DNA from: Branchiostoma lanceolatum
Lineage: Eukaryota; Chordata; Leptocardii; Amphioxiformes; Branchiostomatidae
Reading direction: 5' to 3'
DNA length: 64,000 nt
NCBI RefSeq assembly: GCF_035083965.1
Contig: NC_089740.1
Location: 10,910,596-10,974,595, forward strand
The notes below the pieces were generated by a model. That model saw nothing but the letters and a program-made list of their open reading frames with translations, did no database searches and was not told where the DNA came from. How positions within the stretch are numbered: position 1 is the first letter of the stretch; each line of letters opens with the position of its first letter. This document shows positions 4,001 to 35,191 of the stretch, piece by piece. Made by a program: the position numbers and the translations under genes.

Positions 4001-7000
4001 TTGATTTTTAAAGAAAAATTACATTACATTACAATTACAGTCAGCTGTGTAATGGGTAGAACTGTATATGATCGCATCACTGTTCATTTTTTTTCGTTCT
4101 CATGCACCTTTTTTGTTTTTGTTTGATGCACCATCACCACGGGCCATAGACGGGTACGGCTTTTATTTTCCCTAGGCGTTATGTCCCACGCGGGGTTGCC
4201 TATAGTAATACATAGATGTAGATGTAGTTGTGTAAAGTACATTGCAAGGCATTCTGTGATGTTTGCATAACCTCCTCTGACTAAGTACCATCTCTGTCGT
4301 CCGTTAGGGTTACTCCATTCTAAAACTTGAGAGCGGGTGATAAATGTGAGCTCTTGTTTTTGACCAGTGGAACAAGTAAACATAGATATGATCTATTGAT
4401 TAAAACCTGAGACCAAAATAGTTGGAAATAAGATTGAGAATTGTTACCCCCCCCCCCCCCCCCCCGTGTACACTAAATGTCGGGCAGTAACTTTCTAGCG
4501 AGGTCCAATCATATGGCTGCTCGCAGGTCACCGAACGTCACCGACAATTAGCCAATGACGGTCGAGTTTTGGGTTGTTAACACCCCTGGTCTTATGTAAA
4601 TGTCATCAACTCAAACCAAGCGCATTTCAGTTGTTATTCCCACTACTTCCGTACGTGTACATCTAGATCAGTTTGTAATTTAACTTTCACCACCAAAACG
4701 CGAAGGGACTGAAGAGATGAAGTTTTACAGCTTCAATGGCGCTGCACTAGCGCTAATGGAGCGGTCATTGCGGGAGGGAATAGATCCCGACGAAGGTGAA
4801 ATTCTTCGAGTCGACCCAACATTTCCCACCAAAAGCAAGCTCTCGAAGACGGGCCGCGTACAGAAATGGAGGGAAATCAAGTCCAAGCTAGTCCTGGGTC
4901 AGGATTTTGTGGCACATTGTGAGGCCCCAAATCACCGACTGCCGGCGAGAGAAGACATTGAACGGATTTTCCGGCAAAGTCACCTAAGAACGAATCCAGA
5001 GTGCGACAGCGGCGCGTCTTCGAGTCACCGGCCATGGCGTGAGACTTGGGAATTGGTAAGTAATACCAAACTTCTTGTGAACAATATTTGTCAAAAATCA
5101 TGATTGTTTTACAATATGTTCGCTGAACCCTCCTTGCTGGAACCAACAAAATTTGAACTATACATGTAACGTTACATGAAGGTGTAACTTTATCATATAA
5201 CCGCACAAGAACATCGTTATGATTGTCTATTTCCACGCATAAACTATTCTGAATATATATGATGTTTTCGCTTTATTGCACACTTTGACGGACGTTGGTG
5301 CTAAAATGTTACAAAATGCACAAAACATAATGTAGAAACCGTTTTTATATGCAATACAATCAGTCTAAATTACGCACCGTATTATCGGTCAATCGACTTC
5401 TTTTGCTTTTTGTAATTTGTGACATGTTCTTATACTTGCATGTATGCAAAACCCGCTTACAATATAACGTTCAAAGAGGTTTACCTTGCTTCTGTGTGAT
5501 GTAAAAGCATTTGCTGAATTTGAATATGTCGGCCAGTCGTCGAGTCTTTCAGCTTTCTGAACTTTAAAGCACGATAATTTATTCATAGAATAACAATAAA
5601 GGTAACAAAGCCACTTAGATAGGATAATAGTAGGATAACATGCTAATGATTATTTTTGTAACCAAACGGAGATAAATAGGCGACTTTGAAGAGTTCTTAT
5701 TAAGTCAGTAACCCAAACACGCCTCGGATTTTGAGGCCAGTAACGTTTAGCTGACAACTCCTGAAGTAACGTCCAATATTATTTCAGATATCTTCAATGT
5801 ACCAAACAAATGTCAAGAAGTTTGGCATCACAAGAGAGGGCTTCGAACATCAGCTGGACACCTGTTCTTGCAAGGTGAGCGTCACGCCGGCACAACCACA
5901 GACAGCGCAGACAACCGCAGACGGTAACGACGAGTCTGAAAGCGAGGATGAGTTTGTGGGGTTTCCAGACGAGAGCGACAGTGACAGTGAGGGCTCTGAA
6001 ACAGAAAGCTATGATCTTTTCGAAGAGATGGACATTTCTGTGAGAGATCCTAAAGCCGGAATCAAGATCCACACCAGACCCCGCACCGTCAGTCGCCATG
6101 ACTACCAAAACATCACCATTTCCAGTGACACTTTAGAAGAACACATTGAAAACCTATCGGACACCCACAATGTACATCTGAAGGTAGTGCATACGAAAAA
6201 GACCACAGTCAGTATGAAAATCCGCGACAACGAAACAATCCATCTACTTGGCACCATGAAGACGTTTGCGTGTCACAGGGCCGGCACCCCGAGAAGAAAA
6301 CGGCTGTGCAAACGGCGGAGGAGGAAAAGTCGTGCAGTTGGATGCTCCTTCCGGGTGAAGGTTTTCACCCCGAATGACGAGAGCCAGCCACTGCAAGTTC
6401 GCCTCTATCCACACCATTGTAATCACACCCCCGGTTCAGAGGAGGACAGCTGCTACATGCCCGTACATCAGACAGTGAAACAAGTGGCCACTGACTGTCT
6501 TGGCGTAGGTATGACTGTACAGCAAACATCCAACATGCTACAGTCCATGCAACAATCTGGGACTATTGAAATCATAAACAAAGGCCGCTGGAGGACAACT
6601 CTGACAAGGAAAGAACTGACTCAGCTTCAGTATGAAATGCGCTGCAGTAAGAGGGTCCACCAGGATGACTGGGTCGGCACCTACGCCAAGGCAGAGCGTC
6701 TCCGAGACCAGGGCGTGTGTATCTTCTTCCAAGAGTACGACCCTGACAATGAAGACCCCGACAAGAGACCATTTGTCCTGGTTCTCCAGACAGAATGGCA
6801 GCGGCAGGCGGCAGAACGCTTCAGCCCCAACAGCGTCTGGACAGTGGACTCCACCTTCGGCCTGAATTCGTACGGCCTACCCGTCTTCAGCGCAGTAGTG
6901 CCCAACCAAAACCGCCAAGGACTGCCAATATTCTACCTGATAACGTCAAATGACAAGAAGACCAAGCACGAGGAGACTGGGGTCCGGCTTGGGTTCGAAG

Positions 7001-9689
7001 CTCTCCTGGAACGAATGAGTGCACGACCGAACGCCATCATTATTGACAAGTCTCTAACAGAGAAGAGGGCAATTGAGAGTGCCGTACAGAACGACCCCTT
7101 GTCGTGGGAAGACGGCACTCAGTCCAAATGCCACCTTCTCTTATGTTGGTTTCACGTAAAGAAGGCATGGACGGAGAACTTGTTGCCAAAGTTGGAAGGA
7201 CAGATGGCGGCAGATGTATACGAAAAACTATGCGGACTTATGATGCACCCGACGTGGCAGGGCTTTGAGGAAAACCTGGAGCAGTTCTACTCCGAATTTG
7301 AGAACGCGCAACAGGTCACTAAGTACATGCGTGGGTGGGACTGCGACGAATGGCGTAGCATGTGGGTCCGTGCTGGCCGCATGTTCCCCCACGGAGATAC
7401 TGACACCACGAACCTTGTAGAGCGTCACTGGGAGTTAATCAAGTATACAACACTCAATGGTAGGGCCAACCATCGCTTAGATGTTCTTATGGACGCTCTG
7501 ATCGGAAATCCGGACGATGGCACTTTCCATGGAGGGCAAAGTTCAGTGGGTTTCTACATGGAGAAACAGAAGGAAGTAGATATGGGACTCCATAGCGCTC
7601 GGGCCACGGTAGCGGAGAGGAACAGACAGAGCAGGGCAGAGATGTACATGCAGGCACACAGCAAGGACAGCTCTGTTCTCCGGCTGCAAAGCGAGGCTCT
7701 GCTTCTGTTCAAAATCAAAAGCAGTAGCAAAAAGGGGGTACGGTACAATGTTTGCTTAACAACAATGATCTGTGACTGCAGCGACAACTTCAACAATGCC
7801 ATCATCTGCAAACACATCTGCGCATGCCGCCTGTATGTACATAAGTTCAAACCCCACCTGCTTGCAAACATAGCTCCCCCGGACGCTAGAAACCCAACTA
7901 GTTTTTTAGTTCCAAACTGTGGATCCAGTACTGACAATACAGACGAGACGACAGAGTCACAAGTTCCCACACCTGAAAGTTCGGACACCTGTGAAGACCT
8001 AGATAATGCTCGTCTGCAAGTGGAAGCAACCTTGCGCGATATGCAATGGGAGGGAATGACCAGCTACCAAGCAGCGCAGACTACAATCTTAATGAAGAAC
8101 TTTGTTAAACAGCTCCAGACAGTTCAATCAGTACAAAAGCCACTCACCCGGGATGAGAGAGTCGTACAGGCTAGGCTTGTTCGCACAATTCAGCAGGCAA
8201 ACACTGCTGCGCGTCGTCCTACCAGCAGCACACAGGACCCTGACACCCAACCAGCCAACAGAATCATCGCCAGACAACCAGACCAGCAAACAAAACATCG
8301 AAAAAAGATCAAACAGACCCACAAACGGATTGTCCTGCCAGGAGAACATCACAGCAAGTTCAAGCGCGCAAAGTGTGCCAACTGCGGAACCTCAAACTAT
8401 GTTTGTGTCAACGGAAAAGCTACAGAAGCCACTACAACATGCAAAAACTGTGACGAGGAAGTGACCTGGGCTTGCCCTAAAGATGGACACAAGTGATCAA
8501 TGAATGAAAACTACAGTAAACCCTTCTTTCATATCTTTACCGACAAAGGTCACAGAACATAGTTGGAATTGAAGAAGTGTGAAATGTGGATGTTATTTGG
8601 ACGCTCAAGACTAACACATACGTAGAAATTGTAAAAAGTAAAAAGCATGGCAAATATTGTGCGTAGTTCATGTTACATTAAGAACAAGTCGGCTTTGAGG
8701 TTGTATGAATTAGATCGCGAATTTTGTTCAGTCGTACGTATGACCGTGCCTAATTAATTTGACACGGCATTATCATCGTTAAGTATTACCTATGCATCTA
8801 GTTGTGTTTTTCCTTCGACATTGTATACTTACCTTTGTTGAATCTATACATGCGCAGACTATGGTCAGCCAAACACGATAGCGACATTACTTCCCTGTAT
8901 TTTCTGATGACAATAAATGTAAAGTTTTGTATGTCACATTGTCTATCACCGAACATTATTTCCGTACATGAAATTTAAAGAAAATGCATGATACGAAGTG
9001 CTACAGCTTAGAACTTCAACCATGCTAAAGATACCAAAATGCTCTCTCCGAAGCGTGGCGTTATGGCTATACTGCATTATCAAATATAAGGCGTTGTGAA
9101 GTCAGGTCTTGTCGATGACGTTTAAAACTTGTTCAGTGCGTAGTTCTGCTCTACATAAGCAGGATTAAAAGTCATGTGCTGCAAGTCCCACGTAAAGTTA
9201 CTTCGTAATGTATTGCCGCTATTAACAATGAACCAGTAATCGACGGACAATGGGTGTGAAATATTCATTCTTGTCCCTCGCGTGCCAGTAGATTGGCGTT
9301 AATTGGCTACTTTGCATTTGAAAGGACCGGCTCTGGCGACGTTCGGTGACCTGCTAACAGCCATTTGATTGGACCTCGCTAGAAATTTACTGACTGTCGT
9401 TAAGTGTTGGGCCCCCCCCCCCCCCATATCTACTGAATACATTCACTTTCATTGTGTTGTTGTCATGGGACTTTTTTTTTAGAGTGACGTCACACTGATG
9501 CGTGACGTAAGCCGTGCAAATTGATCTACATAAAATGACGCCATATTGTTTTTATTTTTCTAATTTACAGATGTCTGTAAAGCCAGCGCAGAGTCAGTGA
9601 ATGCAGAGAGAGCTGTGCCGGAACCAACGAAGGGAGGATGGAATGATTGGATCGATCAGTTACTTGGAGGCTCTTCTAGAACGGGCTAG
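726..9689 (+). CDS. Secreted phospholipase A2, gene A (5' end missing)
   Basis: Predicted calcium-dependent secreted PLA2, which hydrolyses the sn-2 ester of phospholipids outside the cell. Exons by splice consensus and phase: 726-821, 1416-1504, 2003-2124, 2988-3095, 9571-9689 (stop TAG), about 177 residues plus a missing first exon. The first listed exon carries a hydrophobic signal peptide (VLCLFVLAFTGCWA) and the N-terminal helix LEQLGDMIVK. The second has the calcium loop YGCWCGPGGQG. The third has the active site CCRTHDHCY with the His-Asp pair. The fourth has the Cys-rich LCECDKGLSTC helix. All phases agree (0, 0, 2, 1, 1). Gene B has the same order, but its signal peptide and calcium loop share one exon. 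The last intron is 6.5 kb and holds a minisatellite and a transposon. Both edges of the signal-peptide exon carry tandem duplications. Whether the gene is still expressed cannot be told. Confidence 0.85.
1197..1353. repeat. MITE-like element, family 1, copy 1 (intron of PLA2 A)
   Basis: The ends are inverted: agccggttcacggtttgaactgcgca at the left and tgcgcatgcgcagttcaaccgtga at the right. The interior includes gtcaaag-tgaaggcccctaac-tgtaaacag. Related copies lie at 12262-12475 and 38230-38395. This copy sits in the gene A intron that gene B lacks. Confidence 0.75.
2188..2402. repeat. MITE-like element, family 2, copy 1
   Basis: Imperfect palindrome in the third PLA2 A intron listed. It starts near cacttgtgcttatgtgcaag and ends near catacgcacaagtgtg, with inner arms gcatgagttgcg / cgcaactcatacg and aagtttgc / gcaaactt. 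A second, shorter copy is at 51279-51465. Confidence 0.65.
2507..2700. mobile_element. 176-bp perfect-type foldback MITE with 9-bp target duplication
   Basis: The element spans 2516-2691 and is almost wholly palindromic. Two arms of about 83 bp start TAGTCTCCAAGCAGACCTAC; they differ at two adjacent bases and surround a loop of about 10 bases. The 9-bp direct repeat caaaaatcg flanks it (2507-2515 and 2692-2700). A 9-bp duplication fits Mutator-like (MULE) elements. The near-identical arms suggest a recent insertion. A transcript would form a long hairpin. Confidence 0.9.
3065..3948 (+). repeat. 49-bp minisatellite, 18 copies, built from a PLA2 exon end and splice donor
   Basis: Copies begin with tacgtaccgg at 3065, 3114, 3163 and then every 49 bp to 3849; a final diverged copy is at 3904. 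The first copy is the true 3' end of the PLA2 A Cys-rich exon plus its donor (caag|gttagt). Every further copy repeats the last 31 exon bases, the donor and about 18 intron bases. Each unit also ends in a cag that could pass as an acceptor. Reading through the first donor gives an immediate TAG, so only the first donor makes the full protein. Confidence 0.95.
4717..8496 (+). CDS. MULE-like transposase with SWIM zinc finger
   Basis: Predicted cut-and-paste transposase. Exon 1 is 4717-5055 (donor ttg|gtaagt). Exon 2 runs from 5788 (acceptor tatttcag) to the stop at 8496. Joined length is about 1015 residues, phase 0. Visible in exon 2, counting from its first ATG at 5797: an acidic N-terminal stretch; a Cys/His region (VGCSFRV...HHCNH) like the zinc domain before MULE catalytic cores; a DDE-type core with VDSTF near residue 351, IIIDKSL near 416, CHLLLCWFHVKKAW near 445 and NLVERHWE near 541; a SWIM finger CDCS...CKHICACRLY near 660-680; and a C-terminal zinc ribbon with four CxxC-like pairs. 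No frame break is seen, so the element may be autonomous. Exact superfamily placement (MuDR or a relative) is inference. Confidence 0.85.
5056..5787 (+). other. Intron of the transposase gene
   Basis: AT-rich, with stops in all frames. It is bounded by gtaagt and ttatttcag. No other feature is seen. Confidence 0.7.
8497..9334. other. Transposon 3' untranslated region
   Basis: No coding potential. An AATAAA at about 8911 (gacaataaatg) is a plausible polyadenylation signal for the transposase mRNA. Confidence 0.5.
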
Positions 9690-10785: not shown

Positions 10786-13700
10786 ATGATGGTAAGGTTT
10801 GACATTCCCACGTTACTAAAACACAGTTTTAAAGTAAGGTACAACATGTATATTGTTTCCTCATTTGTTGTTGGAATGTATCAGGGGATTTCCTTTAGAT
10901 ACCACTTACATTATATATATAATGCTTACAGTGTTACTGGAACCTAATACAATGCCCTCTTCACCCAGCGCATATGGTCGATCGTTTCGTTGATTATCAT
11001 ATTTTCATATCATTTGATGAACTTGTCAAAGTTATCATGGCTGTATCGTAGGAGTTCATGATGTCGCCAGTATCTCTTCAATAGATAATTTCTCACTCAT
11101 ATAGATTAAAGGTAAATAACGTTTGTCCAAACAGGAACTCAATCGCATTTCAAATAGAATCTCCTTTGTTCTATCTTTTTACGACTTTCTCTGATATATT
11201 TACCTGTTGTGAAAGGTGGTCGAATGGACTCTTAGAGATGCGCACAAAATTGTCGATTCTTCTTCGTGTGTATTTGATTTGGAATGAATAACGCTAACAA
11301 GTATGGAGTCATGGCGTTAAAATAACCTGCCATGTTTTTACGGAACTTCCTCGTTTCGGTTCCGGAATTTGATAGGGGAAGGTTGAGCGCTTTTGACCAA
11401 GACATGTCAGCTAAGTATATGCCGACCTGCTGGTCCGAAGGAGAAACAAAGTGCAATTAATTAAAGAGTAAACATAGAAAGAAGTTTGCGGGGAAGAATT
11501 CGATGATACAGAAAAGACAACAATTGCAAGCTAGCTAATGCATGAAAGAGTCATGAAAGTTATAATAAGGGGCGTAAGATAACGGAAAATTCCGAAACGA
11601 CCGCTCAAAATTGACTTAACAATAAGTAAGGAAGGTAGCGTGCTTTGTCAAGTGTTTAGCGACCCTAGCTTCTTGATCAAGAGGTTGGGAGTTCAAATCT
11701 CTGTTGTTGACGCTCCCCCGACATGCGCGATATGTACTGGAAAGGGTTGCAGTCCTTAGGACGGAACGTTGAGCCCTCACTGTTCATTGTGCTTGTCGAA
11801 ACTCGGAGCTGGGGGAATTTCTCCGGAAAAATAAACCTGTAAATACTCTACATAGCGTCTGTTTTCTCTGTCACGACCAGTGGATGATTAGCTCTTAATT
11901 AGCTAAACTGGTTCAATATCACTTAGTAATACCCCCGTGTTAAGTGTGCATTTTCACTTTCATGTTATTTGATTAGCCAGTAAAGGTGGCTTAACTACAT
12001 GAGTTTGGATGTAACGTTACATGATTACAATGGACTTTGCTTATTTCTCGCCAAAAGGTTCGACTGCTTCCTCTTTTTTGCCTCGTGACCGTTGCCCTCT
12101 TTGGACACGTGGTTGCCGTGCCCAAGGCAGTGACGCAACTCGGCGTCATGATCACCAAGGTGACGGGCAGACCTCCATGGAAGTACTGGAACTACGGCTG
12201 CTGGTGCGGTAAGGGCGGCCAGGGTCCCGCGGTGGACGCCACAGACAGGTGGGTGAAATAAGCCGCTCCACAGTTTAAACTGCGCGTGTCTAGCGTGATG
12301 CATTGTGGGTAATATGTCAAAGGTGAAGGTCCTTGCAAACAGTTCTTGTCTACACCATTCTTCTGTCATACATATCTAGATGTGTTTTGATGTCTCAGGG
12401 GCATTCAACTTTGACATATTTCCCACAATGCACCACGATGCGCAGTTTAAAACGTGAACCGGCTTATAGAATTATCCCAATCCACCACTTTAAGCCCTGG
12501 TAAAATATGAAAATGTGACGACAAAATATCAGAAGACATTTTCACGGATCTTATTGCATGCTAGGAGACGCGGGGCATTATGAATAGACAAAATCATTAC
12601 CATGACAACGCGTAAACTGTGCATGCGTACTGTGTCCGGCCCGGTTTACATGTATGGTTTCCTTTTTTTTTCTTTCATTAGTTGCTGTCAAACGCACGAC
12701 TTTTGTTACGAGGACCTTGGGAAGCCTCCGTGCAAGTGGACGTTCAAGCAATACTTCACGTCCTACAAGTACGGCATTGATGGCAAAACTGTCACGTGCG
12801 GTAAGTCAGTAACACATTTTATGTCAAATTCTATGAATGAAAGAAAGGAGCTGTTTCAAGAGGTTACCAAATTCCATTCTAATTTCTCCACGTTTACACA
12901 CAAAAAGAAAACTACTCTCCTCTTATATCACAAAACCCACATATTACAGAAAAAGTGGAATCATTCGTCTTCCACTGTCTCGGAAAAGAATTTAGTGTCC
13001 ATATTTTGACTTAGATAGTCACATGTTGTATTGTTCCCCCATTATCTGTCCGCCGTTTTTCATGTTGCATGTACTTACAACTAGCCTACGGGCAAGAACT
13101 TGCAATAAACTGTCATTAACTAATCAACGAAACATTCCCAATAATGAATAAAACAATGAATTCACTAAAAGTCCAATAAACAGTTCACGGAGGTACATGT
13201 ATGAGATAGTCGGTGTCTTCTTTTCTGCAGGTGATCAGGAAGGGACGTGTAAACGGACGCTGTGTGAATGCGACAAGACGCTGGTCAGCTGTTTCGCCAG
13301 GAGCACATACGTCGAGAAGCACGATCATATGGATCAAAGTGAGACTTGTGAACCAGCTAGCCTAGCACATTAAGCTTCTGTCATACATTCGGGACCTTCT
13401 TAAGACTTTTGTCCCGACCACTCCCCAACCAAGGTCGGCGCTGGGTTTGGAGTAGCCTAGAATCCACTCTATTCTATTCCTCTGATCGTAACCAAGCAGA
13501 ATATGAATTTCCCCACTTTGACTTATTTTTGACGGCTTAGACTATGTACTATCAAGCAGTTTTGCCGACTAACTCCCAACGACAGATGACCAACTCCCAA
13601 CCATGGTCTGGAGAAGGTCGGGAGGCCATGATTCGGCTATGTGTAACAGGTGCTTAAGTTAAGCCCACATGAATTTCTTAAAACGATTCACAATTTCTCA

Positions 13701-17417: not shown

Positions 17418-19365
17418 ATGAAGATACTTCTCGTCGCCATCTTGATCACCGCCATCTTGATTTGCTCATCCGAAAGCAGAGCAGGTGGGTACAAGATAGC
17501 ACAACTTGATAGGTTTCTTAGCCTCTATAGCATATGTACCTCTTTTTTCATGGTGATATTACTGAAACAAGAGCCTTGAACGAAAGTGACTGTAGTGCGA
17601 GGCTGGAAGCATACTAAGGTAAAGTAAAGCAGGCATCCTCAATTGAGGTGAAGCATAATGCTTTTTCAAGAAGCTAGTGGTAGTGCAATGCGGCCTCGGC
17701 ACGGCTCGCGTTTTTTGGCCAAGCACACCGGGTCACCCCTACTCTTCTCGATAAGTGTGTTGGGTTCTTTTACGTGCAGAGGTTTGACGCCCTAAAGCTC
17801 CCCCATACACGGGGCCGCCGTCTTTACGTCCCCATCCGATAGGACGATGCGCATCTTTTCCAGTCATGTCCAGGCCAGGGCCCGAACTCGGGCCGAAGCA
17901 TACTACACCGGAAAAATATTAGAAACCTATAGCCTCCATAGCAGGCTCTCTGGGCATTTATTTGGGTTTATAATACACTTTTGTTGATGACTTATTTTTG
18001 TAATGGGTCGTTTATGCAGCCAGCCCGTAACCATTATACCCGTACAAGCGACCTGGCTGTAGAAAAGAACCAGTATAAAAAGAAGTCATCAGCAAAAGTG
18101 TATTATAAACCCAAATAAAGGCCCAGAGAGCCTGCTATGGAGGCTATACGTTTCTAGTATTTTTCCGGTGTAGTATGCTCCCAGCCTCGCACTACAGTCA
18201 CTTTCGTTCAAGGCTCTGATCTTGTTACAGTAATATCACCATGCTAGCCAGAGGTCAATGAAGAAAAAGGGGTACATATGCTGAGTTTTCAGGTTATCTG
18301 TATTTATCTTTACACCAAAAATATGAATTAGAAGTTCTTAACAACCTTTGATTATACATTGTGCGAAACCAACTTGTAGAAAAAAATACGATGAAGCTAC
18401 TTCGTGTTTCCCAGACGTTAAAAGCAACAAACAACGTATATACTATAAATTAACCAGTTCGTTATACGGACACAACTACCAGTACTAGAAAGTGCACGGA
18501 AAACAATGTGCTCGTGTGTACCCGTGTGTGTTTGACTTTGGACAAAGTGTCCGACCATATGCGCTTGACAATGACATATGTATCCGACGTGTGTATTTGA
18601 TTAGCAAAGCAAAGCGACATATGTAGATACAGAGCAAATATAGACGATTTAAGATGTCAAGTTTCAAACAGTTTCCTTTCATGTTTACTGTAGTCTCAGA
18701 CGTTCTGCTGGAGAGGTTGGACTCGGAGACCAAAGAGGAGCGCCACCTGGCGATCAAGAAAAATGGGCAGGATGTCGTCATTGACCCTGAGGATGATTGG
18801 TACAGCGCCATGATGGTACGTTTAATGGTAAACTGAAAACGTTTCAAAGGAATACACTCTGGCTTGAACAAGTCAACTGTTTTTTGTGTATATTACTCAA
18901 TTTACTGCTTTGGTGTTTGATAGTTTTGTATCATTGTATCATTTTATCTCATACTGTACGGGGTGAAATAAGTTGCACAACTTGTCTCCTAATTTTGTTG
19001 GATTGTCTTCTGAATAAGTAATGAAAAAGACACTGCCGACTTTTTTGCAAATTTTATTACATTCTTCATGATTCTTGCCATCTATTCCAATTGGCGGGAA
19101 AACTGTTACATCAAGATTTCAAAAACAACAATGATAATGATGACTTAGAGCCCTCTCAAGTTTTCAATTTAGACTTGTCTCTTCATTTTCTTTCCCAATC
19201 TTACCTAATTGATTACTAAGCCCTTCCCCTATTCCCACATAGGGCAAGAGAACTTCCATTGACAGCCATGAAGAGGGTCGTGACCTTCAACCCACCAAGG
19301 TCCGCGTCTCAGGTCACAAGGCGAGGTCAGAGATCAAAGTTGACGAGGGAAGGGGTGAAAGTTAA
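17418..19365 (+). CDS. Small secreted precursor 1, candidate amidated neuropeptide
   Basis: Three exons: 17418-17484, 18700-18815, 19243-19365 (TAA), 101 residues. Exon 1 encodes a signal peptide (MKILLVAILITAILICSS). Exon 2 ends with a dibasic KK and then the 18-residue segment NGQDVVIDPEDDWYSAMM. Exon 3 starts with GKR, the usual signal for dibasic cleavage and C-terminal amidation, followed by a 37-residue hydrophilic tail. Phases are 1 and 0, identical to precursor gene 2, and the core VVIDxxDDWY recurs there. There is no cysteine after the signal region, so a disulphide-folded protein is unlikely. I do not recognise the peptide family. Secretion and processing are inferred from signals. 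It is not proven to be a neuropeptide. Confidence 0.75.
17529..18282. mobile_element. Foldback element in intron 1 of precursor gene 1
   Basis: The outer arms 17529-17616 and about 18172-18282 are inverted copies (agcatatgtacc...tcatggtgatattactg; cttgaacgaaagtgactgtagtgcgaggctgg). Inner arms at 17896-17995 and about 18083-18172 continue the palindrome (acaccggaaaaatatt...tagcctccatagcaggctctc). The left arm is split by a SINE-like insertion. Confidence 0.85.
17607..17905 (-). mobile_element. SINE-like insertion inside the foldback, with 10-bp target duplication
   Basis: The segment 17617-17895 is flanked by the direct repeat aagcatacta (17607-17616, 17896-17905). The uninterrupted right arm of the host foldback carries this site once. 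The insert's text (ttcttctcgataagtgtgttgggttcttttacgtgc and gcactaccactagct when reversed) recurs at 26060-26195 and in part at 50640-50730. Confidence 0.85.
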
Positions 19366-20713
19366 AAGGATGAATTAAAGATGTCGATGGACACAACTCC
19401 GTTGAAATGGCTTTCTCATTTTGTATTTCACAATAATTTTGTTAATTAGTAGGTTTTTTTTTTACTACATCCGCTTTCGTGCAGCATCGTAATGCCCCGT
19501 TATATCAACCTTTCCTTGAGAGTCATCTTGCGTACAAAAGTATAGGCATGGTTGTTTTAAAAGCAAAGTTCTTTTATATTTAACGTTAGTCCACACAACA
19601 ATACTTACGAAGTTAACGCGTAACGCACCTGATTTCCGGAAAGGCGGCGACAAACGCGTTCGTTTGACAGAGGGGTGGAGGAAATAATGTTACGTTTCCT
19701 CTTTTTAGAAATTCAGAATGGACCTGCGATTTTACGACAGTTTCTCAGCACGCGAAATTAGCTTAAAAGATTTAAACTTTGAACTGAGGACGGTAAAACG
19801 CAGGAAATGCTGAGCTATTCGGCAAATGGAGAGTTAGACAAGCTTTGGACGAAAGTGAAGAAAGATCCGATCTTGACAGCTGACACGTTGGAGAAGATGT
19901 TCCTACAGATACTGTAGAAAGGCCTCAGAGTCACGAAAGGCACCCACACCACACCGCACCACACACCAAACCAAACCAGAACATACATTGTACCAGGCAC
20001 TTGCCTGCATTGAATGACATGCCCTGTTACTTAATTCACATGTACTAATGGCAGAATATGAAATATGCTGATATGTATATATATATATATAAGATACTTA
20101 TACTAGAAAATCTATTGAATTATATTGAGGTAACTGTTACATGATATATTGACAAATAAAAAGTCCAAATTGAAAGCTAAGTCAACTAGATTCAAAATGT
20201 TTTATTGCACATTTGGATGCATTTTCCTCCCGTTGATTCCCTGCCTTTGCGAAATGCCTTCCTCATTTGTAATCTACAATGCAAAATTCTGTGTTATGAA
20301 TAAATAGATACCAGATTTTGTATTTTCCATTTTTTCACTTTCTGTTACAAAGTTCTACTAAATCTATATTTGTGAACAGGTGCTACTGATATTGCTACAA
20401 TAGGGTCCTAGAAATTACACATATCAATCTGTCTAATCTGACATGCTACTGTAAGCATTTGATATCGTTATCGAGTAAAATCTGACAACTGCCTTTTTAC
20501 ACCTCCTATACAAACATGAATAGGTGTGTTTACATAGAAAATTACATGTTTGATACGTTACATATAACTTTATTTTACGTTTCAATAGATATTTACGCGT
20601 TCCACATTGTTCCATGCCATCAAGCTTCTCCTATATTATCACTTGATAACTTTCCCTTCTTGAGAGCAATATAGACTCTCTTTCTTTTGAAATACTATTC
20701 GAATAGAAAGTCC
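19366..20713. other. Spacer between precursor gene 1 and KCNMB-like gene
   Basis: Convergent 3' flanks, AT-rich, no gene seen. A minus-strand AATAAA near 20567-20572 could serve the KCNMB-like transcript. Confidence 0.5.
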
Positions 20714-22358
20714 CTACGCAAAGTTTTCGAAGACTAGCTTGGGCCTTGACGAAGGTTGGGGCTGATTCTCGTCTCCGGGCTCTTCCGGTTCATCCTGGAA
20801 ACGAGACCAGGGGTTGTTTGATGCACTTGTAGGAAGGGTGGACTCGATATACCGCGTAAAACGGGTGTAGGCGAAACAGAACGCCACCGAGAACACCACC
20901 ATGACTAAGGCCGGCCAGAACAGTGCGTGGAACACTTCGCTCCAGGAAGACTTGACGTGGGTACGGGCTGCACCGGAGGGGTTTCCCGGGTCGTACCAGC
21001 AGGGGTAGGTCTGACCGACTCGTCCCCAGGTTTCCTGGTATCGCTCCACCACTTCGTCGTTCAACTCGTGGTCACGTGAGCATGGTGCAATGGCACACTG
21101 TAACCAAAAGAAGAAATATTCTAAATCACGGTCAAGATATCAAAAAAAGTTCTTCTAGACCCAAATTTACATAAGAGAGCATATGATCTTGTTGTTGTAT
21201 CCTTGTGATATTGTGTAAAAATTAGATACATGGAAATATCTTGCATTTGCTCGACAATGTTGATTTCAGCTGCAACTGGGCATGCGTCAATGATAGAATA
21301 AATGCGATTCTAAAGTCCGTACGTAATCTAAAAAAAAGCAAATGTCCAGCAAACAACATCATTATCACAATACAAAATCTTCATTCATATCATCATAATA
21401 CAAAATTCTATGTTAGTCCTAATCTTCAATTTCATACAACAGATTATGAAATAATAAGTCAAAAGGGGTTCCCGCACAACTTATTACAAGCAAATGTACC
21501 AGAAATTGAAATACTGAATAGTATAGGTAACGTTTTACATTTTTGCACAACGTCAATGTCAATGCATATATAATATTGATTCCCCATTCTTACTTGCGCT
21601 AAGAAGGTGATGTTTTCAGTGCCGTTTGCCGTCAAGGAAGGTGAACATCATTAGACGTAATCATATATAAAATCAGGGCCTCATATACAGAATTAATGAG
21701 GAATTGCTACAATAGGCTTCTTTTCACACTCTGAACAACTCTATATTTGAGTGGATACTGAAGATGATCAATTAACGTAATTCATGCAGATGAGGACATT
21801 TATCGCATAATCAATGTGAAGCAAGCATAATATGTCAGTCGTAAAGGCTAAGGAGAAGGTATGACGTCTTTGAACTCTTGGTTTTTTTTTAGCTAAACGT
21901 TTCAGGGGAATATAAACAAAGCCGACGTCAAATTCATCTCGAGAATCGTCTCAGTTCTTAAAGCACAAATCTTAAAGATCTTCTCTCAATTTACTAACCT
22001 CGTTCCCAAGGTCTTCTTCTGAGTCCACCAGATCAGCAGTTCGCTGTTGCCCGTCTCCGGTAAGGAACGTCACAGAGATGACCAGGCACTCGTACGTGCT
22101 GACACAGACATCGTACCTCCCCAGCGAGCAGCTACAGGAAAACCGGCTGGGACGATCGGGCTTGTCCCCGACGAAGTGCGAGCCGTTCACGTGGCAGGTG
22201 GCCTGTTGTGTCCGCATACGAACCACGGCCGGCTGGGCGACGGTGATCCCGAGAACGACGAGCAGGATCGCTCCGATGACAGCCATGGATAAGAGCATCG
22301 AGATGCCCAATTTTACCAGCCTTTCCTTGGGTGTCAACACACGTACATGTATAGGCAT
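20714..22358 (-). CDS. Calcium-activated potassium channel beta subunit-like protein
   Basis: Two exons on the minus strand: 22358-21999 and 21097-20714, 247 residues, phase 0. The architecture matches KCNMB subunits of BK channels: short cytoplasmic N-terminus, TM1 (LGISMLLSMAVIGAILLVVL), a Cys-rich extracellular loop with an N-glycosylation site (NGS) and CSCSLG...C...ECLVISVTF, then PCWYDPGNP, VFHALFWPALVM and TM2 (about 26 residues) before a polar tail. The PC.YDP and VFH.LFWP signatures are typical of the family. The start is the first in-frame ATG. A longer open frame upstream lacks ATG. It should modulate BK gating at the plasma membrane. Which vertebrate beta it matches cannot be decided by eye. 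Confidence 0.88.
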
Positions 22359-23332
22359 GGTTGTTATGAAAAGAAAGCTTTTCAGCCCACTAGACAAAGA
22401 GTACACTAGTAGTAGTAGTAGTAGTCCACTGTTTTCTGCTGCTGCTATGCGTACAATGTGAACGTATAAAGGCCGATGGACAAACGTTTGTGTTTGATAG
22501 AATGATACAGGAAACAGTGTTGCGTTTAGACTTTGCTCTTCTTGGAAATGGTGAGGTTGCGTGTGACGTTTCGTTGTCGCACCACTTCCGGGTCAAGATC
22601 ATGTTCGCACTGCCTCCTACCGGTTATCTGCTAAACTGCAATATCAGAAAGTTGGATGCGACAGTGCTAAAATTACATGTAAAGGAAAACATTTACTTGC
22701 GACCATGGCAATCTACATAAAACATCCTTGGCATTTGCCAGAGGGCGTTTTGACCTTTCTGCTCGCTCACCAAACCCTTTCACATAGTTGTAAAAAGGTC
22801 AAGAATGTCTGAGTTTTAGCTACGGGACTATCTAAAGTGGTTGTTGACAGTCTCTCGACAAAATAAGTCCTAGAGTTCAACCAGTACATCACCATTTTAT
22901 CATAAAAATACTATTCAGCAACATTTATAAACATCTACGTAGTGTGTACGAAATAACGTACAGATTGGCGCTCGTTATATGTAATATCCTTCCCCTTCCC
23001 TGTTATTCTACTTAGGAAATACAGGTGTCGTGACGACTTTGAGTGTATTCTGCAAATGTATCGAAAGGTTAATACCTGAACAAACATAATGCATTCCTAG
23101 TTTCCCAATACTTTATACTAAATATTTATTCAGGCGTCCCTAGTTTCCGGACCTATCGTTAGGTTGAAAATGTCATGAACGACACAAACAATTTTGAGGT
23201 ATCATTAAAGCAGCTGCTGCTTTTGCGGGTGTGCACAATAACCAAGAGGACCACAGCACAAAGTCGTCATCAAGTTTTACTCGGTTTTCGACGTTTGACG
23301 GACAGGTTTGCAGACGACCCCAATTCGTCAGG

Positions 23333-26300
23333 ATGGGACGACACATTGTCATCATAGCCGTCGTCGTGGTTACGATGCACCATCATGCAGCTGGTATGCT
23401 TTTTTTTGCAAATGGCTCAATCTACGATTGTTAGCTTCTATCAAATTCTTGTCCGGAAGCTGATTACAGAAAACAGCATAAGTACAATTAATAGAAAACG
23501 GTGTCAACGTAAGACATGTGTGTGGCTAGTTTCAATCATGAACGGTCTAAATCTTACTATTTGGGTTTTACTTTTTTATTGGCTTAAAACCTCACTTTTT
23601 ACGCAATGCGAGGGTTCAATGAATATCTTTGGGCGTGTGAAAACGATGACGTTGTCTTTTAAAAAAGCATGCATCGCTCGATTAGTTTTATGCTTTATGG
23701 TTAATCCTACAAAATTTAAAGGGTATACTGTGGAAACATGGAACTATCGCTGCTTAGCTAGTAGTGTATGAACTAGAGTTGAAAAAAGAATAGAGAGAAA
23801 AGCGAAAAACGTGTGAGCGGCCATATTTTTGGTTGCAATTTAGCTTCAATCACAAAGAGTGACCTGACCCCACGACTTTAAATTTGTCCACGACTTTATC
23901 GGTCATTTAGTTTCAATTCAAAGTGTTAACATGTTCTATAACACCAATACATTATGCGTGTACACACATTTGAGTGCCTGTGTACATGTGTACGGCCATG
24001 TTGATTTGATTAAATGGATGATATCCGCGCACGCATCATTTTTTGTCAATGTCCCCCCCAAAAAGAAGGAGCTGCAAAATGAGCAACTTATGTATGCCGT
24101 AGATTGCAAAAACATATCAGAAAATGGTTACTAATGTTGTAATTGAAATGAAGAATCTATTGTTCGGTATACCCGCTATACCGTGTGCTTAGTCATTTGT
24201 GCAACCTTCCTGTCCACGTAGTTATATAGTAGTCCAGGAGGAGATACCTGAAAAAAAATGGTCTCGTAGCACACCCTTTATATATAGAACAACATACCTT
24301 AAAATGATCAAGGGACATCAAGCTATCATTCTATGATAGTGAACTAAATATGTAAATGGTGTGCTACGTTTGTCAATTTCTAGCCTCTTCTGAGACTCTC
24401 ATCCTGGACTATAGATTTCATAATGAAAGCGAACTTTTTCGTTTGCCAAACTTTTTTTTCGCACGCTCGCCTCAGTTTGAGGTTCCCAGAGGACACCATC
24501 CGGATAATCGAATCAACATGGCCTAAGTTGTTACTTACTTCAAATACATATTGATTATATCATTCAGCGCTCCCACTAGTGCAGCAGCGCCTCCCAGCGG
24601 TTCAGCGAGGGAACCCACATTCACCCGAGCCGCCCGTCATTGTTCACCCGGACGATGACTGGTTTATTCCACCATTTGTAAGTAATTCAGTACGAGGAAA
24701 TAGTTTTTTTTGGTAAGAATATGTGACGATTGCTTCTCCTTTAAATCACGGTGGTCCAATGCTAAGCATCGTGCACAAAGAAAAGTTGGTGATGTTGTTA
24801 GGTGTTTTTTTTTTATGAGCATTCAACAAGCGAGCCTGCCCTGGAAACATTTAGTCTCTACCAGACTAACCGCGTCGGCTATAGAGAGAACATTTGCCGG
24901 GGGACTTTGGTCATGGAGGATAACATTCCCATCCCTCTCTCCGTAGCCAAACCCCTTCATACAGTTGACTCTATTTGGCCAATTTCTACTATTGAAGTTG
25001 AATGACATGGTCCTTCCTAGTAATCATATTTTTTGTATCTATCTCGCTCTTACAGCAAAAGAGTCCTGAAACAAAGGGTGAGTATATGTGCTATAATTTG
25101 ATATCACACACCCCCGACAATATGTACAAAAAATGTACCGTGGTTGCATGTTTATCAAATTAAGGTAGCATTTACTGAAGCACCATATAAATGAACAAGC
25201 CTGCACAGTATAATTTCTGAAGTCATTTGTTTTGAAGCGTATCAATCAAGTTTTTGGGTCGTTCTTATTACTATATATAGACACCTTTAATTGTTATCTC
25301 TACCAGACTAAGTACGCTGGATGTAGGGGAGTTTAATTGGCCCCCATAGGGCTTCATTTGAAATGTCACCATTTCCATGGGCTCTCTCTACTGGCCAATT
25401 ATTTACCCTATTGTTGCTATCCATAGTCCCCTGGGAAGGCCTGCTACTTTAATGGTAACTCTCGCATAGGTTGAAGGAAATGATCGTTGTGTACTTCTGA
25501 TTGGGTGAAACGCCCTGCCTGGCCCGGTCGTGTTGTCTCCCACAGTTTAGACTTTCCGGGCCAGACTGGAGGCCTGCCTGTCTTATGCTTGGGTCACATT
25601 TCCCAGCCGGGACCCGGCCGGGCTGTTTGCGGAAACGAAAAATTGAAATGTATATCAATAAATATGCACAACCTATACTTTACTGTACGTTTTGTGTGTG
25701 TTTGTTCCCCAACACTGCCCGACCGGGCCCCGGATTGAAAATGTGACCCAAGCATTAGCCTGGGACCTCCCCCCCCCCCTACTTTGCCCCTGACGGGGTC
25801 ATCTGGGGGGTAACCCCTAAGTTGAAGTTGAAGTTCAAATATCGGTTATCAGAACATTAGAAGAAAGCAACAATCTTCTCCTCCAGCCCCTGCTTGGAGA
25901 GTATTTAATGGAGCTCCCTCCATTCTTGCAGTCGAGCTGAAAAGCAACGGCAACGGACCTCACCCAACCCCGGAGATAGTGATTGACACCATTGACGCCT
26001 GGTACCACCCACCGGGATGGGTCAGTATCTTTAAAAGAGTGTCGAACTTCAGCACGTATACGTACAGAATCCAGTGCACGTATCGAGAAGAGTAGAGGTG
26101 ACCCCGTGTGCTTGAATAAAAACGCGAGCCGAAGCGAAACCGTATTGCACTACCACTAGCTAGACAAAAAAAGAACCATGCTTCACCTTGGTTGAAAATG
26201 ACTCTTTTACTTTACTTTTATTATCCGACGAAGAGAAAAGGGTGAAAAAATATATTGAAGGGTCCAGTAGTAGTTGCGCCACAAAGGCATATAGGAAAAA

Positions 26301-26566
26301 TATTATCAGGAACAATGTAGAATATTTGCGGTATATCTTTTTATTACTAATAGTAAGAAATATAAAGCTTATTTTTTATTAGGATCGTCTTCAGGCAAAT
26401 AAGAAATATCTTACAATCTATCTAATTGCTAAAAGCAGTGTTATTGATGATGAACAGTAATAAGCTATTTTTCTTAACCTTAACCCTCAACTCAAGCAAC
26501 AACATATCTCTGCACATGCACTGATTTGACCGTTTTCTTTTACAGGGCAAAAAGGGCCAGTCCTAG
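23333..26566 (+). CDS. Small secreted precursor 2, candidate amidated peptides with alternative exons
   Basis: Proposed exons: 23333-23393 (signal peptide MGRHIVIIAVVVVTMHHHAA), 24568-24677 (peptide exon a, ending PVIVHPDDDWFIPPF), 25056-25077 (22-nt micro-exon, QKSPETK), 25932-26020 (peptide exon b, ending PEIVIDTIDAWYHPPGW), 26546-26566 (GKKGQS stop). Peptide exons a and b both enter in phase 1 and leave in phase 0, like exon 2 of precursor gene 1. Either can join the signal exon to the GKK exon and give an amidated C-terminus. The micro-exon (phase 0 to 1) would allow both in one protein. Exon b's donor (gtcagt) is weak. The core motif is shared with precursor gene 1. Splicing and peptide processing are inferred, and no known family is recognised. 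Confidence 0.68.
26060..26195 (+). repeat. SINE-like fragment in the last intron of precursor gene 2
   Basis: tatcgagaagagtagaggtgacc...gcactaccactagct matches the reverse of the insertion at 17617-17895. Confidence 0.7.
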
Positions 26567-30604: not shown

Positions 30605-31360
30605 TTTTTCTGATTCTGCCACCTCAGGGTGGTGATGGACTGTACTGTCACGGTTCTCCACTACAAGAAGGCCGTTTTCCTGAAAGATGCGAAGCTCCTT
30701 GTAGCTGTTTTGTGTCATCCTGCATGAGTTCGACATTTCCTGGTCCCCGTTGCGCGTCCTGTGGAGTGTCCTGTACGTTGTATCACGGTATCAAACGCCC
30801 GATAGACACTTCTCAGTTTGCCTAAATGCCTTCCATAAGGCTGGTGTACGGACAACAGTTAAGATTGGGTTGATTGATGAGTTCAGGCATGATACTGCTG
30901 CGACCACTACATTCATACGAGGGCACATATCTCGGTAGGCGCTACATACGGGGATGGCCATGATTGTTAACAGCCAGAAGGTGAACGCTACCACAGCATG
31001 TATCAAGACTGTCTTTGCCTTCTGTGCACTTTCTTCAAATGTCCTACATGTTTCCCGATCAACACCATTCCAGTGTGTTTGTCTAGAACCATTCGGGATT
31101 TCCCCTTAACTGTTTGAAGAGCAACTGACCGACAAGGTCTATTTCTTTGTCCATTTCTCTGTTTGATAACGATATACACAATGACGTTTGTTAACAGCAT
31201 AACACAGCCGAGGAAAAACATTATGGATGTAAACATGATGAAAAAGACCATGGGGTAATATTTGATGCACTTTCCAGAGGTCAAAGTTTGCATGTCTAAA
31301 CAGTTCCATCCCACACCGGAAGAGAAGGCAAGGAAAGGAAAACAAACCGCCGAAACTGGA
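30605..31360 (-). pseudogene. Truncated GPCR pseudogene (TM4 to C-terminus)
   Basis: On the minus strand this matches the back half of the intact GPCR at 33971-35191. It has MGWNCLDMQTLTSGKCIKYY, the TM5 segment FFIMFTSIMFF, the CRSVALQT loop, TM6 FTFWLLTIMAIPVCSAYRDM and TM7 SINPILTVVRTPALWK. Homology starts abruptly in TM4 near 31360, so TM1-TM3 are absent. Small indels break the frame in the third intracellular loop and after TM7 (a 2-bp loss after ALWKAFRQ). The intact gene has no introns in its coding region, so intronlessness does not show whether this is a retrocopy or a segmental inverted copy. Confidence 0.88.
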
Positions 31361-33970
31361 AAGAGGTCTTTTTATATGGTGTAAACCGGCACGTGTATAC
31401 CCCGCACGTGAGTTTCTAATATGCCAAACTACGTAAACGTATAATCTGATTTTTCCTAGGATGAATTACTAGAAACTCCATTTTGACATAAAATAGCTAC
31501 AAAGCAACCTGCGAATGAGACAATCATCTTATTACTCGCGCTACCCTTAAGTATATTATGCTCAATGCGCAGTACCAATTGACTATACAGGTCAGAACTT
31601 TTGACCGTAGGACCTTTGTAAGACCTGAGGAAAATCACAACTACAAAGCTACAACAGGTGGCCAATGAGAAGATCAACATGCAAACATATTTTGATCAAT
31701 CTGGAGGGAGTGAATTTAGTCTTCAGTGAATTCCATTCAAAATGATTCACTGAAGAGGTGCTACAACACAATGTCCAGGTGGATTTATCCTGAGATGCAT
31801 ATGCTATCTCTCATTGGAGTTCCTGACACACATGTATGGCTGACCATGGCCTCCCGACCTCTCCAGACCATGGTTAGGACTTAGTTAGTTGTGAGCAAGG
31901 CCATCTATGGTTGGGAGTTGGTCAGAGAGGCCCCGGCTCCGTTAGCCGACAATGAATTTTGAAAAGTCGAAGTAATCGGGAAGGTCATATTCTGCTTTGA
32001 TCCGATCAGAGGGGCGAAAAATGAAGCTAAAATAGACACACAGACACACAGACAGACAGACAGACAGACGCAGAGAACACAATACCTCCATTTCCATGGG
32101 GTAAAATGACACCATGATTATCTTATCTACTTAAAGTGGCAGAGAAAAACCTCGCAATGTTCATTCTAGTACAGATAAGTTTGAACGCATACTTACCCCT
32201 ACGCATTGAGCATGGAAAATCAAGTATACATATAACATTATATTGGTATTGTCCATAACATTAACATTCAAAAATTGTGTCCCTTGATGACTTCATTTGA
32301 TATTCAACGAAATACAATATTTCAAGACCAGCTCACAATGCTGGTCTGCTGACATTCTGTGAGAATAAAAGATGCTCCCCACAAAAGTCATGTTAAGATG
32401 TATTTTGTTTTGCTTCTTTGCCAATCTGCAACTGAAGGCAGCCAAGACTTCCAGATATGACATAATGATATGTAATCATATACTTAAACAATATTGTTTG
32501 GAAACAAATTACAATTAATATTTCAGGGGGTCTATGATTTTCTGTAAGTGTATGTGTGCTGCACCTGTACACATTATCCCGGTTTTTATTTGGTTTTTGA
32601 TGTGACGCATGTATGTCCATATTCTGTTAGTATTTGAATTTGTAATTTACTTTGGAAAAGCAATAAAGGGAGAGAAAAAAGACTTCCAGATAGGGCAATC
32701 AAAGTAGACCTGATCAGTATTAACTAGCCATACCACGGGGGTACGGGTTACGGATAGTAAAATTCAGATAAATTGGCCATGGGAGAAAGTCAGGCTTGAG
32801 GTTGGTATTTCTCCTTGGAAATCCAAAGGTCCCTGGCCCAAATATTCTCCCTATAGCCAGCATAGTTAGTCCGGCAGAGACTATGAATTAACAGCAAAAG
32901 AAAGGCCATTGAACCCTAGACTAAAAGGTTAGAAAATACCTACATCAGCTAGGTCGTGAGCAGCTCTATCTTTTTCTTGAGGGAACTTTATTTATTGAAT
33001 ATAGTCGGCAAATTACTCAATTGTATAATCAAGGCGTGTTTTTTACATTAAATTGTTCAGCTTGTACAGAACACCAAACCCTAGCAGCTTTACAAATGGT
33101 CTATTGTCACTTAATTGATCACATTTGATATCCAGTTTGAATCAAGGCAAACAGTATATTTTGTCTGTATCTATTCATTTGTTTTTTATTTTTTTGTGTC
33201 GCATACCAAACCACCTCATGGCGTAACACATCAGGTTTGTACTGAACAGCAAACACTGCATATCCAGACAGATTTATTTGATCAAGCGGACATTATATAG
33301 GACCCTTGATTTTAGCCACTCACGCCGGGAAGGACCTCTACTCTTATCGCCGTGTGGTGGGTTCTTTTACGTGCTCGGCGCGCGAGGGTTTCATCAAACA
33401 CGGCCGGGACCTCCATTTAACGTCCTATCCGCGGACGTCCCTAACCGAAGCTATGTACTCATTTTCACTGGAGTGAATTCGTCTATAAGTGCCTTTCCCA
33501 AGGGCTCAACATCACCAGGCATGTAAGCAGATTCGAAACCAGCACCTCTGGGTTCTGGCCAAACACCCTGCCATTACGTATACGTCACCGCGACGCCACA
33601 TGATGTTTCCATATATTAACCCACCTTACTGCCCGAGGCCTAATCTCATTAAACGAGCAGCTTCTTCGCAAATTGATCCTCTTGTCAAAGGGAAGGACGC
33701 TTCGCCGCAATCAGATCGCACCACTATAAAAACATTGAGCCATACTTTGGCCTTTGCTACCCAGACTTCCGCACATGAGAGACCCATCTCCTCCTGGGCC
33801 GTCGTTACTGTCAACGTGGGTGTTGCTTTTCGTGACAGTTGTCTTTTGCAAGGAGGTTAAAGCTCCTTGGTCCCTGTTTCTGAGGTCTTCTCATAGCTAT
33901 CCGCACCAGAGAAGTGTTGGGACATAAGCGGCTTCCCTGGCGGCTGTACAGAATCACGACCAGCGCAACC
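31361..33970. other. Spacer upstream of the intact GPCR
   Basis: No gene supported. It holds a repeat related to 13400-13660 (31840-31960), a CAGA microsatellite (about 32039-32072), old interspersed repeat text and a reversed SINE (33325-33599). Confidence 0.5.
33325..33599 (-). mobile_element. tRNA-derived SINE, copy 2
   Basis: Reversed relative of the SINE at 28368: ggacctccatttaacgtcctatcc, aagtgcctttcccaaggg, agcacctctgggttctggcc and gtcaccgcgacgccac in reverse order. Its B box is damaged. It lies about 370 bp before the GPCR start codon. Confidence 0.75.
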
Positions 33971-35191
33971 ATGGTCAACGGCAGCTTTGGCGAACTGTTG
34001 GACACCAATCAGTTGCCTGTTCCCCACTCTGACGGCTCGATGCCCTGCCTTCGGTGGTATTTACGGAACAAGACTGTGTCGTACGAACGAGCCCAAGAAG
34101 CCTGCTCCGCGGCTGTGTACAACACTGTTGACATGGGAACAGGGATCGACATCATCTTCTGGCTGACAGGGATCTTCACCATCATCAGTAACCTTGCAGT
34201 GCTCGTGGGAATCATCGGAACACGAGAGCGCTCCAAACCAATTTGCTTCTTCTTAGCAAATCTGGCAATGTCGGACCTTTTGAGCGGGATTGCACTTCTG
34301 TATCGCGCTGAAGGGCACGTGTTACACAGTGTTAAGTATGGGTTCATGATGACCTTTGTCGATTTAATGACATTTACACAGTTGATTTCGGCATCGGCTC
34401 TATCCATATTGTCTGTGAATTGTTGCCTTGCGGTAAGCCAACCCCTATTCTTCCGCACCCGTGTTGGTTATATCAAGCGCATATCGTATGTAGCTATGGG
34501 CTTGTCGTGGATTTGTTTTCCTTTCCTTACCTTCTCTCCCAGTATGGGATGGAACTGTTTAGACATGCAAACTTTGACCACTGGAAAGTGCATAAAATAT
34601 TACCCCATGGTCTTTTTCATCATGTTTACATCCATAATGTTTTTCCTTGGCAGTGTCATGCTGTTAACAAACGTCATTGTGTATATCGTTCTAAAATTAA
34701 GACAAAGAAATAGACCTTGTCGGTCAGTTGCTCTTCAAACAGCTAAGGGAAATGATTCTAGACAAACACACAGTAATGGTGTTGATCAGGAATCATGTAA
34801 GAAATTTGAAGAAAGTGCACAGAAGGCAAAAACAGTATTGATACATGTTGTGGTAGCGTTCACCTTCTGGCTTTTAACAATTATGGCCATCCCCGTATGT
34901 AGCGCCTACCGAGATATGTGCCCTCGTATGAATGTAGTAGTCGCAGCAGTATGCCTGAACTCAGCAATCAACCCAATCTTAACTGTCGTCCGTACACCAG
35001 CCTTATGGAAGGCACTTAGGCAAAAACTGAGAAGTGTCTATCGGACGTTTGCTACCGTGATACAGGGCACTCCACAGGACGCGCAACGGGGATCAGAAAA
35101 TGACGAACACATTAAGGATGACACAAAACAATTACAAGGAATCGCGCATCGTTCAGCAAAACAGACTGCTATAATGGAAACCCAAGTCTAG
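33971..35191 (+). CDS. Class A GPCR, lysolipid (EDG)-receptor-like
   Basis: Single-exon, 406-residue seven-helix receptor. The ATG at 33971 has a strong context (gcaaccatgg). The upstream open frame has no ATG. Seen: an N-terminal domain of about 60 residues with NGS and NKT glycosylation sites; TM1 ending NLAVLVGIIG; TM2 LANLAMSDLLSGIALLY, close to the S1P/LPA receptor motif; MGWNC in extracellular loop 2, also EDG-like; TM6 TFWLLTIMAIPVCSAY; TM7 LNSAINPILTVV. Odd points: the E/DRY position at the end of TM3 reads NCC (SVNCCLAVSQP), TM6 lacks the CWxP motif and the NPxxY motif is NPILT. These losses suggest altered G-protein coupling or constitutive behaviour. The ligand is unknown. A half copy lies inverted at 30605-31360. 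Confidence 0.85.
   Translation: MVNGSFGELLDTNQLPVPHSDGSMPCLRWYLRNKTVSYERAQEACSAAVYNTVDMGTGIDIIFWLTGIFTIISNLAVLVGIIGTRERSKPICFFLANLAMSDLLSGIALLYRAEGHVLHSVKYGFMMTFVDLMTFTQLISASALSILSVNCCLAVSQPLFFRTRVGYIKRISYVAMGLSWICFPFLTFSPSMGWNCLDMQTLTTGKCIKYYPMVFFIMFTSIMFFLGSVMLLTNVIVYIVLKLRQRNRPCRSVALQTAKGNDSRQTHSNGVDQESCKKFEESAQKAKTVLIHVVVAFTFWLLTIMAIPVCSAYRDMCPRMNVVVAAVCLNSAINPILTVVRTPALWKALRQKLRSVYRTFATVIQGTPQDAQRGSENDEHIKDDTKQLQGIAHRSAKQTAIMETQV

Follow-up and report, generated by a model that had tools for sequence, protein, structure and literature searches.

Two adjacent lancelet genes sharing an acidic core as likely precursors of C-terminally amidated peptides

What do two short, neighbouring genes of the lancelet Branchiostoma lanceolatum produce, given that their proteins share an acidic core? 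The window, by which we mean the whole stretch of 64,000 nucleotides that was analysed, had been described in an initial annotation as holding two amidated-peptide precursor genes about 6 kb apart, an observation that was partly confirmed here and whose interpretation was partly supported. In the established class of amidated peptides, secretion is followed by dibasic cleavage, trimming and glycine amidation. Judging from the sequence, we consider it likely that both genes encode short precursors of this kind, from which secretion and trimming would yield peptides with an amidated C-terminus, likely neuropeptides or hormones; action on a G-protein-coupled receptor would follow the general class. 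A hydrophobic start with cleavage sites compatible with the -3/-1 rule was found in gene 1, gene 2 and the Branchiostoma belcheri protein P0002, signal peptides being called by hydrophobicity and this rule. A basic site before the peptide is present in gene 1 of both species (KK) and before neither core of gene 2. A glycine and basic pair after the peptide was found in gene 1 of both species (GKR) and after the second core of gene 2, core B (GKK); the first, core A, has none in the NCBI model.

Gene 1 (17418-19365) consists of three exons, which lie on the plus strand, as do all other parts of the peptide genes given below. Exon 1 (17418..17484) encodes the signal-peptide-like start MKILLVAILITAILICSSESRA, which is also the start of the NCBI protein P0001, and is left in phase 1. 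Exon 2, the core exon (18694..18815), is entered in phase 1, left in phase 0 and matches P0001 exactly; its acceptor at 18694 is that of P0001 and adds the residues VS, and use of a second AG would move the start to 18700. Exon 3 (19243..19365) opens with the GKR amidation and cleavage site and continues through a tail to the stop codon. When spliced from the window, these exons give letter for letter P0001, a B. lanceolatum protein of 103 aa that is listed as uncharacterized at NCBI, whose models were known here by sequence and name. The exon build, phases and GKR opening that had been proposed for gene 1 are thus identical to those of the NCBI model. The predicted peptide NGQDVVIDPEDDWYSAMM (18762..18815) is preceded by KK at 18756-18761, as had also been noted. 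After removal of the signal peptide, prohormone convertases would cleave at KK and GKR, KR would be lost and the glycine would be converted to the amide, giving NGQDVVIDPEDDWYSAMM-NH2 of 18 residues, with a net charge of -5 and a computed [M+H]+ of 2083.874. The corresponding product in B. belcheri would be NGQDVVINPDDDWYSPMM-NH2. As a prediction, this amidated peptide of 18 residues is well supported.

The orthologue of gene 1 in B. belcheri is P0002 (99 aa), which aligns over its full length with 70 of 103 columns identical if the 4 gap columns are counted as differences. The stretch KK-NGQDVVI[DN]P[ED]DDWYS[AP]MM-GKR keeps 20 of 23 positions; the signal sequence keeps 15/22, the spacer 13/21, the stretch after GKR 7/19 and the tail 15/18. 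Conservation of the core and GKR across Branchiostoma species, on which the initial annotation had staked its proposal, thus holds for gene 1 in B. belcheri. The KK-to-GKR stretch is better kept than the remainder of the protein (20/23 against 50/80; Fisher P = 0.041). The tail is conserved about as well as the peptide, which therefore does not stand out by its conservation. The last 18 residues of P0001 and P0002 read SGHKARSE[IF]KVDEG[RS]G[EQ]S, with 15 of 18 conserved, and this tail may be a second functional part. Gene 2 shows a recognisable relationship to gene 1 of B. belcheri, with E = 3e-07 in a single comparison.

Gene 2 (23333-26566) begins with the ATG at 23333, 5.9 kb downstream, in agreement with the spacing first reported. 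When spliced from the window it gives exactly P0003, an NCBI uncharacterized protein of B. lanceolatum with 100 aa. Exon 1 (23333..23393), the signal exon of what we call unit 2 below, encodes MGRHIVIIAVVVVTMHHHAA, is left in phase 1 and matches P0003; its donor is weak (2.16 on a home-made score), and the donor threshold set for the signal-exon scan left this annotated start undetected. Exon 2 (24568..24677) is entered in phase 1, left in phase 0 and contains core A, VIVHPDDDWFIPPF (24636-24677). Next in the NCBI model comes a 22-nt microexon (25056..25077) that encodes QKSPETK, is entered in phase 0, left in phase 1 through a donor scoring 5.99, and matches P0003. Exon 4 (25932..26020), entered in phase 1 and left in phase 0, contains core B, EIVIDTIDAWYHPPGW (25973-26020). 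The donors of the exons of core A (1.69) and core B (0.65) score low on the home-made matrix. The last exon (26546..26566), an exact match to P0003, encodes GKKGQS and the stop.

P0003 is thus one chain in which core A, QKSPETK, core B and GKKGQS follow one another, with a glycine and basic pair after core B and none after core A. Since both cores are in P0003, the two annotated genes hold three cores, two of them in gene 2. The acceptor at 26546 is the sole one within 24678-26566 that is followed directly by G[KR][KR], and no separate amidation exon for core A was found in 24678-26545. Upstream of GKK, P0003 contains no dibasic pair, so that neither core of gene 2 has one before it. The product would be a secreted chain carrying cores A and B, amidated at its C-terminus at GKK, with no dibasic site before either core. 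Two earlier statements need amending in this light. The expectation that each peptide exon is followed by an exon opening with GKR or GKK stands for gene 1 and for core B (GKK, 26546) and fails for core A, which is followed by the QKSPETK microexon and then core B. The description of two genes of one build is right for the signal-like starts and the short precursors and wrong for gene 2, a single two-core chain with a 22-nt microexon that had been missed. Cores A and B as mutually exclusive exons were rejected because P0003 has both; this arrangement survives as an unproven alternative.

The position of the microexon raises the question of whether gene 2 is one gene. The frame of an ATG at 25002 runs through the microexon and exits by the microexon donor in phase 1, which makes 25002..25077, encoding MTWSFLVIIFFVSISLLQQKSPETK, a candidate signal exon for a third unit; it is left in phase 1 and is absent from the NCBI model. 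This exon has the same kind of start and the same phase as both other signal exons. An in-frame ATG lies 36-90 nt upstream of 13 of the 175 acceptor-like sites in the window, and at 2 of the 13, the 25056 site being counted, the start is comparably hydrophobic. Pyrimidine-rich tracts tend to encode hydrophobic residues; part of the likeness of the 25002 start to a signal peptide is therefore expected, and the likeness is suggestive and no proof. The start also has no basic residue ahead of its hydrophobic stretch.

The best reading of the locus is that of three tandem units of signal, core and amidation exons, the last two of which are spliced together. Unit 2 would lack its own amidation exon and be spliced into unit 3 via an acceptor inside the signal exon of unit 3, the exon with the ATG at 25002, which would then give just its last 22 nt to the chain. 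The strongest competitor, which is quite conceivable if short of probable, is that gene 2 is two genes, with P0003 reflecting either read-through transcription or the fusion of two gene models. Unit 2 would then comprise core A and its signal exon at 23333, and unit 3 would comprise core B, the signal exon at 25002 and the GKK exon. In its favour, the ATG at 25002 provides an in-frame hydrophobic start that exits through the microexon donor in phase 1, of a kind found at 2 of 175 acceptor-like sites, and unit 3 would share the three-exon build of gene 1. Such a division would leave unit 2 without an amidation exon, however, and the NCBI model joins core A to the microexon and leaves the ATG at 25002 unused; the composition of the pyrimidine-rich tract and the missing basic residue weigh on the same side.

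Other products could also arise. The microexon (22 nt) and the exon of core B (89 nt) add up to 111 nt and the exon of core A (110 nt) and the microexon to 132 nt, both of which are frame-neutral to skip, so that amidated core A alone or amidated core B alone is predicted to be possible. The in-frame options would be a junction that links core A directly with the GKK exon, initiation at 25002, and splicing of the signal exon directly to core B, each leading to one amidated peptide. The computed [M+H]+ is 2608.262 for amidated core A and 2869.369 for core B cut after ELK. A more far-reaching proposal, which we put forward tentatively and rate as rather doubtful, is that these "DDW-amides" form a cephalochordate-specific peptide hormone family with an orphan receptor. 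A tandem duplicate that had lost its amidation exon would have been rescued by splicing into its neighbour, whose signal exon became a 22-nt spacer microexon, and the locus would deliver either a two-core amidated chain or, by choice of start site or frame-neutral skipping, either amidated peptide alone. The locus would also be a clear and testable example of a tandem peptide gene that has lost its amidation exon and is retained by splicing into its neighbour.

If the basic motifs are unused, the proteins could instead be small secreted proteins with another role, be it epithelial, in gametes or immune, in which the core and the tail act within an uncut protein. The conserved tail after GKR (15/18) and the lack of a dibasic site before the cores of gene 2 would fit such a role. 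We regard it as unlikely, as two species retain KK-(18)-GKR on either side of the stretch that is conserved most, and core B of gene 2 likewise ends with GKK. The predicted peptides have net charges of -3 to -5, whereas classical antimicrobial peptides are cationic, and an antimicrobial role was rejected on this acidity.

No match above the cut-off was obtained with Pfam, where the best scores were 13.7 bits (cut-off 27) and 11.3 bits (cut-off 27.2), the gene 2 query containing one extra G. The best NCBIfam hit, with E = 0.053, likewise scored below its cut-off. Among PDB sequences, the gene 1 alignment had 0 matches and P0003 had one, with E = 1.4. The earlier view that the genes belong to no known family therefore holds for Pfam, NCBIfam and PDB sequences. 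The peptide strings were found in no paper of the open-access collection searched and no listed title or abstract named the family; absence from print is unproven.

A further alternative is that the peptides belong to one of the known families of amidated peptides, namely W-amide/MIP, cholecystokinin/sulfakinin or bombesin, and have diverged too far to be recognised. Like bilaterian single-peptide amidated precursors, gene 1 combines in two species a signal-like start, a dibasic site, a short peptide and a glycine before a basic pair. In contrast to these, the lancelet proteins have no recognised motif, the amidation site is on a separate exon starting at the glycine, and gene 2 has no upstream dibasic site. 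W-amides usually have a spacing of six or more between their W residues, cholecystokinin has acidic residues beside an aromatic residue, and bombesin and tachykinin peptides have an M before the amidation site. Core B, which ends in WYHPPGW-GKK, has two W residues and a predicted W-amide end, as do the W-amide/MIP/allatostatin-B peptides. Its spacing is five, however, the peptide of gene 1 ends in MM, and core A, with a single W, terminates in F, so that the likeness to W(X)nW-amides first remarked upon applies to core B only and the three cores do not share the family feature. PMC7270403 reports no peptides of this family in deuterostomes.

The acidic residues next to an aromatic residue and the predicted amidated end recall cholecystokinin and sulfakinin. 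The C-terminal motifs of these peptides are DYMGWMDF-, DYGHMRF- and xYGxGLFx-amide, and cholecystokinin-type peptides and receptors seem to have been lost in B. floridae (both from PMC4772807). None of the three cores contains DYMGWMDF, DYGHMRF or xYGxGLFx, core A has no Y, and a sulphated cholecystokinin-like peptide was rejected on motif. The suggestion of tyrosine sulphation is weak, as the residue before Y is W rather than acidic and core A has F there. Gene 1 has M before GKR, as in bombesin and tachykinin peptides. PMC12002301 describes a GXLM-amide end for bombesin-type peptides of several chordates and one echinoderm, and a lancelet bombesin-type (GRP-like) peptide, DKGQEHWQYGHWY-NH2, that is also amidated and W-rich and has no motif in common with the DDW core. 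Gene 1 ends in SAMM and the other cores differ, which does not agree with a GXLM-amide end or GRP-like identity. The deuterostome tachykinin end, FXGLM-amide (PMC6880623), is not matched by WYSAMM at the end of gene 1 either. With no defining motif of W-amide, cholecystokinin or bombesin shared by all three cores, descent from one of these families appears very improbable.

To compare the cores with chance, a profile built from the core of gene 1 in B. lanceolatum and B. belcheri was used to scan the six frames of the window and of random windows matched in trinucleotide make-up. After gene 1, the next best matches in the window were cores A (44) and B (33.5), and the fourth scored 26.5. Of 200 random windows, 1 reached the score of core A and 5 reached that of core B. 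A score of at least 33.5 together with a phase-0 GTNNG donor 1-6 codons on occurred 4 times in 2000 random windows and for 3 of 3 cores here, a comparison in which gene 1 is both among the three and the source of the profile and the donor rule was set after the exons had been seen. The cores of gene 1, A and B are related beyond chance. Pattern and profile scans gave these three alone as cores in the window; an exon-like KLVVDPDG near 27257 was tried as an extra core and dropped for having no W. That the stretches merely look like exons and have no function is scarcely credible, despite core B alone not being rare (5/200), given the exact NCBI models, the orthologue in a second species, and the donors and phases; for gene 1, the B. 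belcheri orthologue has already refuted it.

In protein-database searches at E 10, which 2 of 4, 1 of 2 and 3 of 3 candidates passed, the matches listed included no relatives from outside the lancelets and no B. floridae proteins; beyond P0001 and P0003, they comprised one relative, P0002. As far as the searches reach, the genes would thus constitute a lancelet-restricted, so far unnamed family of amidated peptides with an unusual fused second gene. Lancelets serve to infer the peptide systems of the chordate ancestor, and a lancelet-only amidated family, if true, would provide a ligand specific to this lineage, whose orphan receptor would have to be sought.

Several other features were seen in and around the two genes. 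Intron 1 of gene 1 contains an inverted repeat (17897-18179) with arms of 127 nt that are 91% complementary, which is probably a mobile element, and the last intron of gene 2 has related stretches, inverted, in the vicinity of 26066-26218. The minus strand between the two peptide genes (20717-22592; Pfam CaKB, two ORFs) encodes a calcium-activated potassium channel beta subunit, and 19483-19568 matches the 5' end of this gene at 78% over 87 bases, which is perhaps the relic of a duplicate. An intact cannabinoid-receptor-like GPCR (33884-35188) has an inverted partial copy at 30652-31346 that is 89% identical over 697 bases and has no Pfam match in the one ORF tested. A second rhodopsin-type GPCR is located at 46108-47379, with GPR6, cannabinoid receptor 2 and GPR12 as the nearest solved chains. 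These GPCRs (33971-35188 and 46108-47379) were considered as peptide receptors and rejected, because the receptors of solved structure closest to them are the cannabinoid, GPR6/12, LPA and S1P receptors, which gives no link to the peptides. An exon-like end with an acceptor and stop, reading VCKASAESVNAERAVPEPTKGGWNDWIDQLLGGSSRTG by eye, is present at 9571-9689. The window also contains a MULE/ZSWIM transposase-like ORF (5770-8493), a phospholipase A2 exon with a score just under the cut-off (12584-13006), a leucine-rich-repeat ORF (52452-54980) and, on the minus strand, a polycystin exon (60140-60853).
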